This document shows, one piece after another, positions 3,286 through 14,838 of a DNA stretch of 64,000 bases (its first letter is position 1; every line of letters begins with the position of its first letter). The notes beneath the pieces were generated by a model. That model had not been told where the DNA came from. It did no database searches and saw only the letters and a list, made by a program, of their open reading frames with translations. Source of the DNA: Deltaproteobacteria bacterium (lineage in GTDB: Bacteria > Desulfobacterota > Binatia > HRBIN30 > CADEER01); assembly GCA_029262455.1 (NCBI GenBank), contig JAJCZJ010000063.1, positions 1-64,000 on the forward strand. Reading direction: 5' to 3'. A program made the translations under genes and the position numbers.

Positions 3286-3491
3286 CCCCAACCTGACCGA
3301 TCAGGAGCCACCCCGATTCTCGATCGCCGCTCGCGGATACCGTCGGCCGCAGGGTAATGCCAACGACGGCGTTTGTCCGAAACACACTCGTCGAGTGAAG
3401 AGCCCTGCGTCACCCCAGGATCTTGCGAGGATCGGCCGGAGTTCGCGGTTCCGGCGCCGGCCTCGTCGCCTTTTCACGTGATCGGATTCTT

Positions 3492-4343
3492 ATGATACGA
3501 CCCGTCGTCGTGGACCGGCTCCCGACAAAGCAGCTGGCGAGCTCCCGCCTCGACCGTATCGAAGAGTGGGCCGCACTCTGGGGCGTTCCCGGCCTGCAGA
3601 GCCGTACTCGGGTCGAGCTGTCGACACGACTCCGATCGTCGCTCGGCCGCGCTTGGCCGGCGAAAAAGCTGATCCGAATCCATGCCGGGCTGATCGATCA
3701 TCCACGCGAGGTGATCGAGGAGGTCCTTTGTCACGAGGCCGCGCACGTGGCCGTCGCCGAGCTCCACGGAGGATACCGACGACCGCACGGCGCGGAATGG
3801 CGCCGGCTGATGAAGCAAGCGGGATTCGAGCCCCGCGTCCGACTGAGGCTGGCAACGCCGCTCGCCGACTACGCCATGCCGAACCTCATTTTCGACGTGA
3901 CGGGTACCGCGGATGCGCTCGGTTGGGAGCGTTTCCACCTGGTCGGACACGATTGGGGCGCGGCGGTCGCCTGGACCGTCGGTGTGTTCGCCCCCGACCG
4001 CCTGCTCACATTGAACCCGATCTCCGTTCCTCACCCCGACGGCTTCAACGCCGAGCGGATGAACCCGGACTCGTGCCAGTTTTCGGCGTCCGGGTACATC
4101 AACGACTTCGTCCAACCGGGCTTCGAGAACGTCTTTCTCGCCAACAATAACGCGCTCTTTCGAAGCATCTTCGAAGGCGTCCCGCCTGATGCGGTCGATC
4201 GACACATCGAGCTTCTCGGCACCGCGCCACTCGTTCGTAGGGAGGTCGTTCCCGATGCGGACCGCATGATTCAGGAGTGGGCTCCCGACCGTGTGATCGA
4301 GGCACTACGTGCCTTGCTGGATCACACACCAAATCAAGAATAG
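3492..4343 (+). CDS. Mosaic ORF: SprT-like protease head + epoxide-hydrolase-like middle + dehalogenase tail
   Basis: An open 283-codon frame assembled from three unrelated pieces. Residues 1 to about 128 look like a SprT-type zinc metalloprotease (HEAAH at 81-85, then RPHGAEW) but lack the usual C-terminal part. Residues about 129-245 resemble the middle of an epoxide hydrolase/dehalogenase (GHDWGAA, nucleophile Asp154) without the preceding HGxP oxyanion-hole strand. Residues about 238-283 closely match, at DNA level too, the C-terminus of the lipoprotein dehalogenase at 1437-1577, except that the catalytic His is Arg258 (DADRMIQE). A hydrolase activity is therefore unlikely. I infer fusion by deletion/recombination; it may be expressed or may be a scar. 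An upstream in-frame start at 3423 is possible. Confidence 0.65.
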   Translation: MIRPVVVDRLPTKQLASSRLDRIEEWAALWGVPGLQSRTRVELSTRLRSSLGRAWPAKKLIRIHAGLIDHPREVIEEVLCHEAAHVAVAELHGGYRRPHGAEWRRLMKQAGFEPRVRLRLATPLADYAMPNLIFDVTGTADALGWERFHLVGHDWGAAVAWTVGVFAPDRLLTLNPISVPHPDGFNAERMNPDSCQFSASGYINDFVQPGFENVFLANNNALFRSIFEGVPPDAVDRHIELLGTAPLVRREVVPDADRMIQEWAPDRVIEALRALLDHTPNQE

Positions 4344-4907: not shown

Positions 4908-5834
4908 ATGACGAATCTCTATCTCCACCACTATCCCGCGTCCCCGTTCAGTGAGAAGATCCGTGCCCTGCTCGGGTACCTCGGCCTCGAGTGGCACTCG
5001 GTCGAGACCTCGGTAATCATGCCGCGCCCGCTGCTCATGCCTCTTTCCGGGGGCTACCGCAGGGTTCCGGTCGCTCAGATCGGCGCCGATGTCTACTGCG
5101 ACACCAAGATCATCGCCCGCGCGCTCGCCGAGCACGCAGGCGACGACAGCTTGTACGCCCCCGGCTTCGCGGCGACCCGGGTCGCCGATGCCGCCGACAC
5201 CCAATTGTTTAGCATCATGGCGGCGCTCTCGTTTCGGCCCGAGGCGATCGGAGGACTGTTCCAGGGCGGCGGGGGTGGCTCGGGCGGCGCGAGCTTGCAG
5301 GACTTCATCAAGGACCGTGCGGATCTCGCCGGCGGGACCGATGTCATCGGCATGACGCCCGAGGTTGCCGAGAGCGACCTCCTACACTGGCTGACGGAGC
5401 TCGACAGCTCGGTCGGGTCGGGGTTCCTCTTTGGCGAGAAGCCGTCGATCGCGGACTTCTCCGTCTACCACCCGCTCTGGTTCCTGCGGAACAACCCCTA
5501 CAACGCGCCGATGGTCGAGGGATACGCCAACGTGATGCGTTGGTTCGATCGAATGCAGGCGTTTGGCCACGGTCGCGTCATCGAGTCCGACGGCGAGGCA
5601 GCGCTCGCGGAGGCGGAAGCGGCAGAACCGCGCCCGCTCGAGCCCGCGGCCATCGGAGTCGGCGCGAAGCCGGACGACACCGTGCGCGTCACACCGACCG
5701 ATTACGGCCGCGTCCCCGTCGAAGGAGAGCTCGTCCGAGCGGACGCGCACGAATTCGCCGTGCGCAGAACGACCGACGAGACCGGTGACGTCTTGACCCA
5801 CTTCCCGCGCATCGGCTTCGCGTTGGAATCGTGA
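4908..5834 (+). CDS. Glutathione S-transferase-family protein with C-terminal extension
   Basis: A 308-residue protein with an N-terminal thioredoxin-fold GST domain (residues about 1-78: YLHHYPASPFSEKIRALLGYLGL, then a VPVAQIG cis-Pro strand and a D-T-K glutathione-site turn). A helical GST C-domain follows to about 225 (GEKPSIADFSVYHPLWFL is the N-capping-box type motif). After this comes about 80 residues of unfamiliar beta-rich sequence, longer than a normal 200-230 residue GST. A glycine-rich linker lies near residues 119-128. The active-site residue would be Ser rather than Cys. It is followed by a second GST after 50 bp on the same strand. Likely conjugates or binds electrophiles; the substrate is unknown. 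Confidence 0.75.
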   Translation: MTNLYLHHYPASPFSEKIRALLGYLGLEWHSVETSVIMPRPLLMPLSGGYRRVPVAQIGADVYCDTKIIARALAEHAGDDSLYAPGFAATRVADAADTQLFSIMAALSFRPEAIGGLFQGGGGGSGGASLQDFIKDRADLAGGTDVIGMTPEVAESDLLHWLTELDSSVGSGFLFGEKPSIADFSVYHPLWFLRNNPYNAPMVEGYANVMRWFDRMQAFGHGRVIESDGEAALAEAEAAEPRPLEPAAIGVGAKPDDTVRVTPTDYGRVPVEGELVRADAHEFAVRRTTDETGDVLTHFPRIGFALES

Positions 5835-5884
5835 GCGCAGCGGCCAGCAGTCCGTCGAAACAGCAAGTACGAGAGGAAATTCTG

Positions 5885-6523
5885 ATGATCACCCTCTACG
5901 GTGCAAACGCCTCACCCTTTGTCCGCAAGGTCATGGCCGTCCTAGCCATAAAGGAATTGCCCTACGAGCACATTCCCTCGATGCCGTTCTCCGGCGATCA
6001 GGAGCTCGCGCGCGTCAGCCCCCTCCAGAAGGTGCCCGCCCTGGTCGACGGCGACCTCAACATTGCCGACTCCAAGGTCATCTGCCGCTATCTCGAGAGC
6101 GCCTACCCGGACGTCCCGGTCTACCCGAGCGATTTGAAGGATCGCGCCCGCGCCGATTGGTTCGAGGAGTACGGTGGCACCGTCTTGACCGAGGCGGCGG
6201 CCGGGGTCTTCTTCCACCGCTTCATGGTGCCCAACGTGTTCAAGCAGCCCGTCGACGAAGACGCCGTGAACAAAATCATCAACGACAAGCTGCCGCCGAT
6301 GCTGGACTACCTCGAGGGACAGGTTCCTGCGGAGGGATTTCTCTTCGGTGACCTCAGCGTGGCCGACCTCGCCCTGGCCTCCCCTTTCGTCAATGCCGGC
6401 TACGCGCAGTACACCATCGACGCGGGGAAGTGGCCAAAAGTAGCCGCTTTGGTCGATCGCGTGAAGGCGCACGGCGCCGTGGCTCCTCTACTAAAGGCAG
6501 AAGCCGCCGCGTTTGGCGGCTAG
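5885..6523 (+). CDS. Glutathione S-transferase
   Basis: A 212-residue canonical GST. The N-domain begins MITLYGANASPFVRKV (Ser in the catalytic position), with the cis-Pro strand VPALVDGD at about 54-61 and the glutathione-binding ADSK turn. The all-helical C-domain contains the SVADLALASPF capping motif near residue 160. The start at 5885 follows gaggaaatt, a good SD, and removes an 18-residue non-homologous N-terminus. With the larger GST upstream and a peroxiredoxin-like selenoprotein downstream it forms a thiol/electrophile detoxification group. Confidence 0.85.
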   Translation: MITLYGANASPFVRKVMAVLAIKELPYEHIPSMPFSGDQELARVSPLQKVPALVDGDLNIADSKVICRYLESAYPDVPVYPSDLKDRARADWFEEYGGTVLTEAAAGVFFHRFMVPNVFKQPVDEDAVNKIINDKLPPMLDYLEGQVPAEGFLFGDLSVADLALASPFVNAGYAQYTIDAGKWPKVAALVDRVKAHGAVAPLLKAEAAAFGG

Positions 6524-6608
6524 CCAGCTCCTGCTGGAGGCCGAGGGCGATCGGTGTGACACTGAGTTTTGCTGAGCCTCGAACCGAAATGAGGGGAGAA
6601 TCGACGAC

Positions 6609-7370
6609 ATGAGAGAAAGACGCGGGACGAAGCTCGGCCTCGCCGCGCTCGCAACCGCCATCGTGTTCGCCGTTGCCTGGTTCGCAGTCAATCGGCAAGT
6701 CGGTATCCCGGATGACCGAACCTTCTTCGTCGTCGGCTTCCTCGTCGCTGCTGCCCTCGGCATCGCCTCATTCGTGCGCGGCACCAGATGGTACGGCGGC
6801 CTGGCGGCGGTGTTCGCCATCTTGATCGGCATCTCCCTACCCTTCACGATGTCCATCAGTCGACAAGACGTTGCCGCGAGTGCCATTCAGGTGGGCGATA
6901 CGATTCCGCGTTTCGCGGCAGTCGACGCGTTCAGTAACAGTTTCGACTCCGAGAGCCTCCACGGGCACCTGGTCCTGATCAAGTTCTTCCGGGCACACTG
7001 GTGACCCTACTGTGTCGCCGAGTTGCGGCGATGGGAAAAAGAGCTTCGGCCCGAGCTGGACAAGCGCGATATTAGGATAGTCACGGTCAGCACCGACTCG
7101 GTCCAAGAGCTGCAGAACGGGCGCGGCGCGCACGGCCTGCAGGCAGTCATGCTGTCCGACTACGGCCTGAAGGTCACCGATGCCTTCGGCCTGCGCAACA
7201 CACTCTTCCATTCGGCGCCGCCCGGAGACGAGCAGGAGGCCCTTCCCGTACCCGCCACGCTACTGGTCGACCGGAACGGAAAGGTACTCTGGATGGATCT
7301 CGCCGAGAACTACCAGAAGCGCACCAGCACCGATGTGGTTCTTGCTGCAGTTCAGAAGCACCTCGACTAG
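6609..7370 (+). CDS. Membrane-anchored peroxiredoxin-like selenoprotein (Sec at TGA 7002-7004)
   Basis: Read with TGA 7002-7004 as selenocysteine, one frame runs 6609-7370 and gives 253 residues. Three hydrophobic segments (about 9-27, 38-57, 62-81) anchor a C-terminal AhpC/TSA-type thioredoxin-fold domain. The redox motif is H-W-U132-P-Y-C135, exactly where homologues carry C-P-Y-C. The fold continues across the TGA without a frame change (VAELRRWEKEL, then VPATLLVDRNGKVLW). A SECIS-like hairpin starts 10 nt after the TGA. Expected role: reduction of peroxides or protein disulfides at the membrane using a UxxC site. No SelA/B/C/D genes are in the window. The alternative, a Cys codon mutated to stop, is less likely given the hairpin. 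Ordinary gene callers would split it at 7004/7023. Confidence 0.85.
7005..7033 (+). promoter_or_regulatory. Bacterial SECIS element candidate
   Basis: Immediately after the in-frame TGA, bases 7015-7020 (TCGCCG) pair perfectly with 7026-7031 (CGGCGA) around a 5-nt loop AGTTG. Sixteen nucleotides separate the TGA from the loop and the loop has G at its second position. Both agree with the known bacterial SECIS consensus. G-U pairs can extend the stem by one or two steps (7013-7014 with 7032-7033). Confidence 0.75.
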
Positions 7371-7408
7371 GGAGCGCCAATGCGATTGCCAATGAGCGAG
7401 GAAAGCCG

Positions 7409-8638
7409 ATGCTGGTGATGTCTCGTTCGCGGAGGGCTGCCCTTGCCGCATTGACGCTGCTCGTGATTGCTGCAGGATGCGGCGACGATGACGATGGCGG
7501 CTCCGCCCACCTCATCGCCGAGCTCGAGGCGACAGGTTTGGGCAAGTATCTCTCGCGTCCCGTCCCTGTGCCGACCGAGGATGAAGATGGCTGGGAGCGC
7601 TACGACTACGCGCCCAGCGACGACGGTCCGGTGTGCCTGCGTGGAACGCCCTACAAGCTCTATATCCGGCCGGGAACGATCAACAAAGTACTGTTCTACC
7701 TCGAGGGCGGCGGCGCTTGCTCGAACGAAGAAACCTGCCTGATCATGCCGACGGCCAAGGACCGATCGGATCCTATTCTTCCGCTGACGTTTCTCGACGA
7801 CGCCGGAGTGCTCGAAAGCGGTGACGACCGTAATCCCTACGACGGATGGCATACTCTCTTCGTGCCTTACTGCGACGGCGGATCGTTCTCGAGCGACAAC
7901 ATCGTCGACTACCCGAGCGGACGCGTCTACCATCGAGGGCTGGCCAATCTCTCAGCCGCGGTCGACGTGATGCGGGATCGTTTTCCCACTCCGACGGAGA
8001 TCACCGTGACCGGCAGCAGCGCAGGCGGGTTCGGGACGTTCCCCGGCTACGGAGTGATACGGCTTGCCTATCCTGACACGCCGATGTTGGTGCTCAACGA
8101 TTCCGGCCCCGGTCTGGGCAACGACGACGAGCAGACCCGGACAGAGCGTCAGGAGAACACGCGCTCTCGCGACATCGTGCCCTCGAGCTGTGTCGATTGT
8201 GCCGATCAGCTCGCTTTCCTCATCGACTGGTGGCTGCAACGAGACGATCGGCTTCGAGTCGGGCTGTTCAGCTACCTCGGGGACTTCGTCATCGCCGACG
8301 CGCTGGCGCTGAGCAGCGAGGAGTACGGTGAGCTGATGCGCGAAGTCACCGATGAGATCCACATGCGCCATCCCAATCGCTTCAAGCGTTTTCTGGTGAC
8401 CGGTCGAGCGCACACCATCTTGCTCGGCGCCGGACGGGGCCCCGAGGGCTTCGGGACCGAGGGAACCCTGTACACGCTGGCAATCGACGGTACCCAACTG
8501 ACCGACTGGATCTCCGACTTCATCGTCGACGGGCCGAGCTGGGCAGATCTAGTCGACTCCGATGCACAGTCCGAACCGGCTATCGGAGGGTCCTCGGAGG
8601 AGGGTGCCGACCTGCTGGGAAACGCCGGTGCCCCGTAG
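7409..8638 (+). CDS. Pectinacetylesterase/Notum-like lipoprotein esterase
   Basis: A 409-residue exported serine esterase. A lipobox (VIAAGC, Cys about 24) precedes an acidic GDDDDGG run. The body carries the family signatures FYLEGGGACSNEETC (oxyanion-hole region) and VTGSSAGGFGTF (nucleophile Ser), a Cys pair CVDCAD, and a late RAHTIL with the probable catalytic His. These match the pectinacetylesterase family, whose bacterial members have varied or unknown ester substrates. The start at 7409 follows gaggaaag with 6-nt spacing; ATG 7418 is an alternative. It lies 38 bp behind the selenoprotein gene. Confidence 0.8.
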   Translation: MLVMSRSRRAALAALTLLVIAAGCGDDDDGGSAHLIAELEATGLGKYLSRPVPVPTEDEDGWERYDYAPSDDGPVCLRGTPYKLYIRPGTINKVLFYLEGGGACSNEETCLIMPTAKDRSDPILPLTFLDDAGVLESGDDRNPYDGWHTLFVPYCDGGSFSSDNIVDYPSGRVYHRGLANLSAAVDVMRDRFPTPTEITVTGSSAGGFGTFPGYGVIRLAYPDTPMLVLNDSGPGLGNDDEQTRTERQENTRSRDIVPSSCVDCADQLAFLIDWWLQRDDRLRVGLFSYLGDFVIADALALSSEEYGELMREVTDEIHMRHPNRFKRFLVTGRAHTILLGAGRGPEGFGTEGTLYTLAIDGTQLTDWISDFIVDGPSWADLVDSDAQSEPAIGGSSEEGADLLGNAGAP

Positions 8639-8691
8639 TGTCGATTCGACGCGGGTTCGGAAGCTAGAGCCCCAGCAGAAGGAACTCTGTT

Positions 8692-9081
8692 ATGAAGAAA
8701 GCCTTGCGCGTCATTTCCATCGCGATCGGTGTGCTGTCGTTTGCCACCGCAATGCAATTCGTCTTCGTGCCGGCCCGCGTCGCGGAGAGGCTGGGCATGC
8801 CGGTACTCGAGGGGGTCGGCGCGAGCACTCAGCTCGGTGACATCGGGGCGCTCTTCCTTGCCGTGGCGGTATTCGTCGGGCTGGCCCAGCGGCCGGGGCA
8901 GGCGCGACTCTTGCTCGTCCCGGCAATCCTGGTGGGATGCGCCGCCGTCATGCGAACACTCGTCTTCGTCGCTGGTCATGCGCCCTTCGCGCCCCAATTC
9001 ATCCTGCCCGAAGTGGTGATGCCGTTACTGCTCGTCGCGGCAGCGCGGGCACGCGCTGACGAGACCGGCGAGACACCGTAG
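8692..9081 (+). CDS. Small integral membrane protein of unknown function
   Basis: 129 residues with about four hydrophobic segments (roughly 6-26, 48-66, 72-92, 100-118) and short polar loops. The pattern resembles small DUF4345/DoxX-like membrane proteins, but I see no diagnostic motif. The start follows gaaggaactctgtt. It lies 53 bp after the esterase lipoprotein and 11 bp before a decayed dehydrogenase gene. Confidence 0.6.
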   Translation: MKKALRVISIAIGVLSFATAMQFVFVPARVAERLGMPVLEGVGASTQLGDIGALFLAVAVFVGLAQRPGQARLLLVPAILVGCAAVMRTLVFVAGHAPFAPQFILPEVVMPLLLVAAARARADETGETP

Positions 9082-9092
9082 GTAGGAAGACC

Positions 9093-9354
9093 ATGAAGAG
9101 CGTTCTCATCACGGGAGCTTCGACGGGCAGCGGGCGCCGCATTCGATGCTCTCAGGGAGGGCGCGACGATGATGGAGCGCCGTGCGGTATCCGTCGCCAA
9201 GGTTGTCGAGGAGGCACTCTCGACGGCGAAGCCACGCCCCCGCTATTTGGTCGGTATCGACGCCAAGTTTCAGGCTCTGATGACGCGATTTCTACCCGAT
9301 CGGGTGCGCGACGCGCTGATCCTGCGTATCATGCGGTATCCGCGCGGCGCATAG
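9093..9354 (+). pseudogene. Short-chain dehydrogenase remnant with internal deletion
   Basis: The first codons give MKSVLITGASTGSG, the N-terminal strand and cofactor glycine motif of a short-chain dehydrogenase, preceded by an SD (taggaag). After about 15 residues the frame shifts, and from 9169 another frame encodes a typical C-terminus (MMERRAVSVAKVVEEALS, PRYLVGIDAK). The catalytic Tyr-x3-Lys core of about 180 residues is absent. An internal deletion has fused the two ends out of frame. Confidence 0.7.
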
Positions 9355-9444
9355 CGAGACCCGATGGAGTGATGCAGCTTCGGGCAGGTTGACCGAGAGG
9401 ATCCGGGTCACAACGCCGAAGCGTAGGACTCCAGGTCTACGCAG

Positions 9445-9921
9445 TTGGGGGAAAGCACGCATGTTGCCGGTGTGGACCCGGCTTCGACTTACGTCGGGGT
9501 CTGGCTGCTCGATCGGGACGCTTCCGAACCGATTGAACCTCTACTGAAGTTGATGGAGGTATCGTAGTTCGTACGCAAGATGGCAGCCGTCGCAACTCCG
9601 ACCCTCACGATCAGTGCACGCGGCGACGGCAAGCTGCGCATGATCAATCAGAATGCGATCCGAACGACCGACCGCACCATCGTCGCCGACGGTAGCGAGC
9701 GAGAAACGGAGGACGCCCTCGGCCGTAAAGTCATTGAGAGCGCCACCTGGGACACACTGGGGCAGCTCGTGGTCACTCAGAAAAACCACATCGAGGCCGA
9801 CCGCGTCGTCGAAGTCACTTCCACTTGGGCTCGCGTCGGGGAAACCCTCCGGCTGACCCTGCGCGCCGACTCGGAGGAGCGGCCCTTGTCGATTCGACGC
9901 GTGTTTCGCCCGAAGCCGTGA
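9445..9921 (+). pseudogene. Lipocalin-like small protein gene interrupted by an in-frame TAG
   Basis: A downstream open frame (9580-9921, 113 residues) reads as the larger part of a beta-rich lipocalin/fatty-acid-binding-like protein (TLTISARGDGKLRMI, IRRVFRPKP at the end). In the same frame immediately upstream, codons from about 9445 to 9564 encode GVWLLDRDASEPIEPLLKLM, the kind of N-terminus such proteins have. The two parts are separated only by TAG at 9565-9567. This looks like one gene with a single nonsense codon. Function unknown; the family assignment is tentative. Confidence 0.5.
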
Positions 9922-14255: not shown

Positions 14256-14522
14256 TCACGCGGCGCGGCGTCTTTGCTCGGCGACATGCAGATCCCAAGT
14301 CGCCTGCAGGTTCATCCACAGCTTTGCCGTGGTACCAAGGGCGTCCGCCAGATCCAACGCTGCATCGGCCGTGATCCCACGCTTCCCGCGGACTAGCTCA
14401 TTGAGCCGCGTCCTGGTCCACCCCAAGTTCCCCGCCAGGGCTGTTTGGGTCATGCCAGCGGGCTCGAGGAACTCCTCCCGGAGAATCTCGCCGGGATGGA
14501 AGGGATTGCGCGGCTGTTTCAT
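14256..14522 (-). CDS. higA: HigA-type antitoxin
   Basis: 88 residues. The N-terminus NPFHPGEILREEFLEP is the hallmark of HigA/VapI-type antitoxins, and a helix-turn-helix follows (MTQTALAGNLGWTRTRLNELVRGKR, about 24-48). It binds and neutralises the upstream HigB toxin and represses their operon. It starts 25 bp downstream of higB on the same strand, the toxin-first order typical of HigBA. Confidence 0.9.
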   Translation of the reverse strand: MKQPRNPFHPGEILREEFLEPAGMTQTALAGNLGWTRTRLNELVRGKRGITADAALDLADALGTTAKLWMNLQATWDLHVAEQRRRAA

Positions 14523-14547: not shown

Positions 14548-14838
14548 TCAATGGTAATCGATCACTCGCACTCCCAGGGCGTTGCCGTTCTTCCACTGAA
14601 ATATGACTCGCCATTGGTCGTTGATCCGAATCGAATGATACCCCTTGAATTCTCCCTTGAGCGAGCCGAGCCGATTTCCAGGCGGTACTCGCAGGTCTCG
14701 CAATTCAGCCGCGTCGTGCAGGTAGAGTAGTTTACGGCGCGCGCTCCGCCGAATCTCCGGCGGGAAGGCGCGCACTGCTTTGCTTTGTCGGTCATCGAAA
14801 AGATCCTCAGCCAGTCGATTGCCGAAGCTGATGATCAT
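14548..14838 (-). CDS. higB: HigB-type toxin (RelE-fold mRNase)
   Basis: 96 residues, the normal length for HigB. It contains the family blocks KLLYLHDAAELRDLRVPPGNRLG, LKGEFKGYHSIRINDQWRVIF and the ending VIDYH. HigB cleaves mRNA on the ribosome. Its own start is at 14838, with higA immediately downstream. The position next to a tRNA-half repeat fits a mobile or stabilising module. Confidence 0.9.
   Translation of the reverse strand: MIISFGNRLAEDLFDDRQSKAVRAFPPEIRRSARRKLLYLHDAAELRDLRVPPGNRLGSLKGEFKGYHSIRINDQWRVIFQWKNGNALGVRVIDYH

Follow-up and report, generated by a model that had tools for sequence, protein, structure and literature searches.

A predicted membrane-anchored UxxC selenoprotein with a thioredoxin fold in the Binatia

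The gene described here lies on the forward strand of a 64,000-nucleotide stretch of DNA (the window) from a bacterium of the class Binatia. Positions 6609–7370 very probably form one gene for one selenoprotein of 253 residues, in which TGA at 7002–7004 would be read as selenocysteine (Sec132). The protein combines a predicted three-helix membrane anchor with a thioredoxin-fold domain and delineates a family of membrane-anchored Sec redox proteins that went unrecognised by the curated models searched. Selenoprotein genes in little-studied lineages are thus still liable to be split by conventional gene calling.

One frame across the TGA

The frame that opens with ATG at 6609 contains a single in-frame TGA, at 7002–7004, and its following stop is TAG at 7368–7370. 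With TGA read as Sec, the 253 residues carry a single U, at 132, within the motif FFRAHWUPYC, and they match the AhpC-TSA profile at 5.1e-20. The initial annotation had placed the TGA at the first Cys of a CPYC-type motif and had the frame continuing in the same fold; both points hold, with UPYC at a position where the homologues have only Cys or Sec and 121 residues between U132 and the TAG. Close homologues share an aligned Met start and keep the TGA. Conventional ORF calling returns two pieces of 131 and 115 residues, of which the first ends at 7004 and the second restarts at 7023, as would be expected if the TGA were a true stop, the mark of a pseudogene or a sequencing error, and the downstream frame a remnant. 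We consider this exceedingly improbable, as the same TGA recurs in other assemblies at 60–84% protein identity, which excludes a sequencing error, and selection has continued past the codon. Nei-Gojobori dN/dS for 28 pairs from eight sequences had a median of 0.227 before the TGA and 0.158 after it; the ratios are rough because median dS exceeds 1, and they indicate that the region 3′ of the TGA is under purifying selection. A TGA-recoding scan of the window returned 262 TGAs that have a redox-like motif and lie between open flanks. The motif filter was self-defined and the scan is a weak chance control. Third-position G+C clearly exceeded second-position G+C on both sides of 22 of the 262, among which the TGA at 7002 ranked first downstream, narrowly (a difference of 0.39, with the next at 0.38).

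Homologues vary little at the Sec position. Ten of 15 genomes in the taxonomic order match at E ≤ 0.001. One scan of an 84,980-species collection found four loci at 60–84% identity, three of them full length and one ending at a contig edge, and all had TGA; homologues of 84, 71, 69, 66 and 60% identity carry it at the same codon. The source genome itself encodes four more TGA-bearing paralogues, each with WUPxC, for a total of five family members. Across the class, 70 of 148 genomes match at E ≤ 1e-30 and contribute 90 matches. At the Sec position, 74 of these have TGA, all as UxxC, 16 have Cys (six CxxC, ten CxxA or CxxS) and none has anything else, so that the proposed check of homologues for Cys came out at 90/90 Sec or Cys. 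This restriction also speaks against a true stop. Decoding of the TGA as another residue, such as Trp, or by near-cognate read-through, is very improbable on the same pattern: Cys, the usual counterpart of Sec, occupies the position in 16 of the 90 matches and no third residue does, several homologues use TGA as their terminal stop, and the genome encodes tRNA-Sec, SelA, SelB and SelD. In a phylum sample, the family matched at E ≤ 1e-15 in 130 of 297 genomes. Because selA was found in 269 of the 297, Sec use is common in the phylum.

Two kinds of relatives differ in form. A TGA paralogue in the source genome (L012, contig C20, 393980–394441) has the motif WUPPC and a 464-residue frame that stays open well past the redox domain, which suggests a fused C-terminal domain. 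A Cys-containing membrane subfamily (L053, L056 and L114–L121) has YRGD[FY]C followed by PF[AS] or AFA, with Ala or Ser for the second Cys of CxxC. The energy, stem, tree and hydropathy counts given below exclude the rows missed by a regular expression for the motif, namely L012, L033, L039, L041, L053, L056, L059 and L060, as well as L065, L067, L071, L073, L074, L093, L097 and L099.

A predicted SECIS-type hairpin and the Sec machinery

A SECIS-type hairpin is predicted at 7015–7031 of the forward strand, where TCGCCG (7015–7020) pairs with CGGCGA (7026–7031) around the loop AGTTG (7021–7025). The geometry first claimed for it was correct to the base: a 6-bp stem with a 5-nt loop begins 10 nt past the TGA, 16 nt separate the TGA from the loop, and the second loop base is G. 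The element agrees with the bacterial SECIS consensus, which sets numeric limits, as a stem-loop directly after UGA, with a small apical loop and G within the first two loop bases. A search against Rfam gave no match within 5500–9500.

Conservation of this segment is visible at synonymous sites. Among eight distinct close homologues, codons 4–13 after the TGA had the highest synonymous conservation of 229 ten-codon windows. The share of same-residue pairs with the same codon was 0.87 there, compared with 0.52 before the TGA and 0.55 past the element. Codons 4, 5, 6, 8 and 9 (V, A, E, R, R) do not vary among the eight, and Leu codon 7 alternates between TTG and TTA at a third base that falls within the loop. 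Over the wider subfamily (17 sequences), standard pairs fill 102 of 102 stem cells, seven of them through double changes, and sliding the stem by 1–3 columns leaves 21–77% paired; the paired percentage is biased towards the window structure, which served as the template for rows picked for Sec and an ungapped motif. Compensatory changes fall at two stem pairs, one present as UA, GC or CG and another as CG or UA. The stem covariation score was reached by none of 500 shuffles, and the count of pairs changed on both sides (two) by 118 of 500.

Folding energy alone was not exceptional. The value for the 42 nt after the TGA falls within the spread of 300 synonymous recodings (z −1.0, p 0.16), and we rejected hairpin stability as proof. 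The median z of 42 distinct Sec sequences was −1.23, with 13 at p < 0.05; six Cys sequences had a median of −0.33, with one at p < 0.05 (Mann-Whitney p 0.028). G within the first two loop bases was also rejected as a discriminator of Sec, being present in 37/42 Sec rows and 4/6 Cys rows. It is therefore conservation and covariation, rather than stability, that argue for the putative hairpin. In the same subclade, three Cys members (L050, L089 and L095) have lost the stem and keep three, four and two of the six Watson-Crick pairs, respectively. A stem alone is no marker of Sec, because two Cys rows can form 7-bp stems (L028, and L089 in a shifted register). Most of the Sec members that are more distant, though not L063 and L096, have a different hairpin whose loop lies 19–24 nt past the TGA and often reads GGT or GGC.

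The source genome (7.34 Mb in 127 contigs, 100% complete by tool estimate) encodes the whole selABCD set that had been proposed as a check. A single tRNA-Sec match exceeded the family cut-off (74.9 bits), and ARAGORN agreed on it, with anticodon TCA. Genes for SelA (561.8 bits) and SelB (375 bits) are neighbours on contig C88. The selD match (271.6 bits) lies inside a 720-residue ORF (L022, 346–2508 of contig C11) whose first half looks NADH dehydrogenase-like by eye, an Ndh-SelD-type fusion with SelD as the C-terminal half. SelD would carry Cys rather than Sec, because the fusion frame has no in-frame stop (the motif is TPCGGCAAK by eye). Ndh-SelD fusions are mentioned in excerpts of PMC2398784. 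Together with the 74 Sec and 16 Cys rows, this gene content supports the selenoprotein reading that was originally drawn from Cys/Sec exchange.

Across the class, the machinery tends to accompany the TGA. We found selA in 54 of 59 TGA-bearing genomes and in 7 of 11 Cys-only genomes (Fisher p 0.029). Adding the tRNA-Sec of G360, G390 and G424 gives 57/59 versus 7/11 (p 0.0045), and counting only the six CxxC-only genomes gives 57/59 versus 3/6 (p 0.0043); all of these p-values are optimistic because the genomes are related. The CxxA form accounts for five of the 11 Cys-only genomes (G162, G234, G328, G339 and G340). Searches used strict E-value limits and covered 12 chosen genomes plus the source genome for tRNA-Sec, and 10 plus the source genome for selB. 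Strict co-occurrence of TGA and machinery was only partly clean, with exceptions in both directions. Since 7 of 11 Cys-only genomes carry selA, possession of the machinery does not impose Sec. Among the Cys-only genomes, G105 and G234 matched none of selA, tRNA-Sec and selB, and G391 matched neither selA nor tRNA-Sec and gave a partial selB match below the cut-off. On the other side, TGA-bearing G211 (listed as 100% complete) and G363 (80%) had no match to selA, tRNA-Sec or selB; TGA-bearing G390 (87% complete) and G424 (96%) have tRNA-Sec and matched neither selA nor selB; and TGA-bearing G002, in 1200 contigs, has selA and selB, with no tRNA-Sec match. The TGA-bearing family member of G211 (L051) lies at 1507–2073 of its contig C192.

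The Sec/Cys label requires five changes on a 49-row tree, four of them forced by well-supported branches, and the label does not cluster (101 of 500 shuffles were as low). One exchange falls within the genus of the source genome. A family member in G004 (L028) reads CPFC and pairs on the tree with a source-genome paralogue (L011); it is not an orthologue of the window gene. No selA, tRNA-Sec or selB match was found in G004. L028 has a 7-bp hairpin with loop GAT, 24 nt past the Cys codon, where L011 has its Sec hairpin, and this may be a fossil SECIS. The two genes, one with Sec and the machinery and the other with Cys and no detectable machinery, offer a within-genus natural experiment on Sec-to-Cys replacement.

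Predicted membrane anchor, fold and active site

Hydropathy peaks and an AlphaFold2 model (pLDDT 84.2, pTM 0.75) agree on three N-terminal membrane helices at residues 5–31 (6621–6701), 38–56 (6720–6776) and 61–83 (6789–6857), followed by a thioredoxin fold. The latter, an AhpC/TSA domain at residues 95–253 (6891–7367), matches PF00578 at 72.1 bits (cut-off 26). Its closest structures by VIA-align were Bcp4 (3hjp; Z 23.2, rmsd 1.8, 156 aligned) and AhpE (1xxu; Z 21.3, rmsd 1.9, 150 aligned), and Foldseek ranked the thiol-disulfide oxidoreductase ResA (4nmu) fourth. The three helices had been called unusual for such a domain. They are present, but they are not unusual in the class, where 22 of 33 rows show three hydropathy peaks before the Sec/Cys, four show two and seven show one; 14 of 15 rows outside the class have none and one has a single peak. 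These 48 rows include L045, which was assigned to the class via its near-identical partner L079. Other classes may have the anchor as well, because the N-terminus of L059, a member from outside the class that the motif filter missed, is hydrophobic.

The thioredoxin-fold domain is most likely on the periplasmic side, a placement suggested by an Arg/Lys-rich N-terminus and second loop and by the odd number of helices. A transmembrane thiol relay of the DsbD or VKOR type is not favoured for the window protein, whose membrane part has no Cys; some family members do carry Cys upstream.

Cys135 (7011–7013), the only Cys in the protein, is the partner of Sec132 in UPYC; it is invariant in alignment A1, and all 74 of 74 Sec rows are UxxC. 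In profile alignments, Sec132 lies opposite the Ser/Thr of peroxiredoxins and the first Cys of ResA, and Cys135 opposite the peroxiredoxin Cys and the second ResA Cys. Pro215 (7251–7253), at least 90% conserved in alignment A1, is the Pro of a VPAT motif and lies opposite a Pro in ResA and an Arg in peroxiredoxins, which we take to be the cis-Pro and the catalytic Arg, respectively. Catalytic peroxiredoxins combine the signature PxxxTxxC with a conserved Arg. The window protein has Sec at the Thr/Ser position and Pro at the Arg position, and its active site is therefore thioredoxin/ResA-like. The label peroxiredoxin-like, given in the initial annotation, is apt for the fold and does not fit the active site.

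With moderate confidence, these alignments favour ResA-like thiol-disulfide chemistry over classical peroxiredoxin catalysis. The protein could instead be a selenoprotein that acts as a true peroxidase, a peroxiredoxin with Sec; the best folds and profiles are those of peroxiredoxins (Bcp4 at Z 23.2; AhpC-TSA), and the thiol peroxidase model PRK09437 matches below its cut-off. We consider this rather unlikely, since Sec stands where TxxC has Thr/Ser, Pro stands where Arg is expected, and WUPxC together with the Pro matches ResA. Conservation and gene content suggest that SelB and Sec-tRNA read the UGA at 7002 as Sec, guided by the hairpin at 7015–7031. The product would be held in the membrane by its three helices with the redox domain towards the periplasm. 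Sec132 and Cys135 would act as the redox pair, in a thioredoxin/ResA-type active site upon a peroxiredoxin-like scaffold. Sec132 would most likely attack a disulfide, a peroxide or another oxidised substrate; a selenenylsulfide would then close with Cys135, to be re-reduced by an external thiol system.

Genomic setting and known relatives

Two overlapping glutathione S-transferase (GST)-like genes (4908–5834 and 5831–6523) lie directly upstream of the selenoprotein gene, and a pectin acetylesterase (PAE) family gene (PF03283; 7409–8638), with a lipoprotein-like start by eye, lies directly downstream. When 11 window genes were compared with 16 loci by tblastn (E 1e-8), neither GST-like gene turned up next to an orthologue. 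The nearest genome, G002 (L042/L108), shares pieces of the PAE gene and of the window gene at 8692 as neighbours. L101, L042 and L108 have hydrolase-like matches at a distance of several kb, and in L103 a sulfatase adjoins the gene. Ten neighbours at six loci gave Pfam matches to GST, hydrolase, P450, sulfatase, TonB receptor, FG-GAP repeats and alginate export, with three unmatched. A GST-fold gene adjoins the orthologue in G003 (L101); at E 1e-8 it shows no similarity to the window GSTs. Elsewhere in the window, an ORF at 3423–4343 runs by eye from a metalloprotease-like start (HEAAH) into an alpha/beta-hydrolase-like end and is perhaps a fusion or a pair of decayed genes; a short ORF at 9093–9392 has a short-chain dehydrogenase-like start (KSVLITGASTGSG) and a truncated look by eye; and a HigA/HigB-type antitoxin-toxin-like pair, also called by eye, lies on the minus strand at 14256–14522 and 14548–14838.

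None of the NCBIfam models searched reached its cut-off: the SelL-related redox protein model (NF040769) scored 19.1 bits against a curated 120, and WAxxUGC_long (NF041054) 23.9 against 300. Recognition by these models is therefore unlikely. Our search of the available literature found no paper on selenoproteins of Binatota or on selenocysteine in Binatia. Several families of the class have forms with the three-helix anchor. It is possible, if on balance doubtful, that the class built a multi-copy, membrane-tethered periplasmic Sec redox system in which Sec/Cys switching follows loss of the machinery, even within a genus.

Among structurally characterised proteins, ResA (4nmu, 3c71) shares the WCxxC-type site, the Pro at the aligned position and the thioredoxin fold. 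ResA has a single membrane anchor. The window protein differs in having Sec for the first Cys and three helices rather than one anchor, and structural alignment ranks the Bcp and AhpE peroxiredoxins first. Bcp/PrxQ and AhpE (3hjp, 1xxu) share the overall fold; however, the Thr/Ser of TxxC and the Arg, judged on 2cx3 and 2ywn, are not kept in the window protein, which is also membrane-anchored. In the PRX_like2 group (cd02970), the second Cys of CxxC occupies the peroxidatic position and the other residues of the catalytic triad are missing, an arrangement that in general description resembles ours. The group differs through the UxxS motif that the available part of Table 1 in PMC13188914 gives for a 'Peroxiredoxin-like family protein', whereas the motif here is UxxC.

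The nearest counterparts are the Prx-like UxxC selenoproteins. Those with PF00578 are 'predicted with high confidence' in the accessible sections of PMC13188914, whose Table 1 lists Prx-like thiol:disulfide oxidoreductases with PF00578 and UxxC/UxxU; UPYC has this UxxC form. Excerpts of PMC9312934, PMC2398784 and PMC1088965 also list or describe such proteins. The same sections of PMC13188914 include a 'Redoxin family protein' with UxxC, a name under which the present family could already be known. Compared by the features listed in these excerpts rather than by representative sequences, the Prx-like UxxC selenoproteins and the window protein share the AhpC/TSA domain, Sec as the first residue of a CxxC-type site and a bacterial SECIS-type hairpin after the UGA, and differ in the three-helix anchor of the window protein. 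UxxC Prx-like selenoproteins are thus known already; what is new is the three-helix anchor, which is common in the class.
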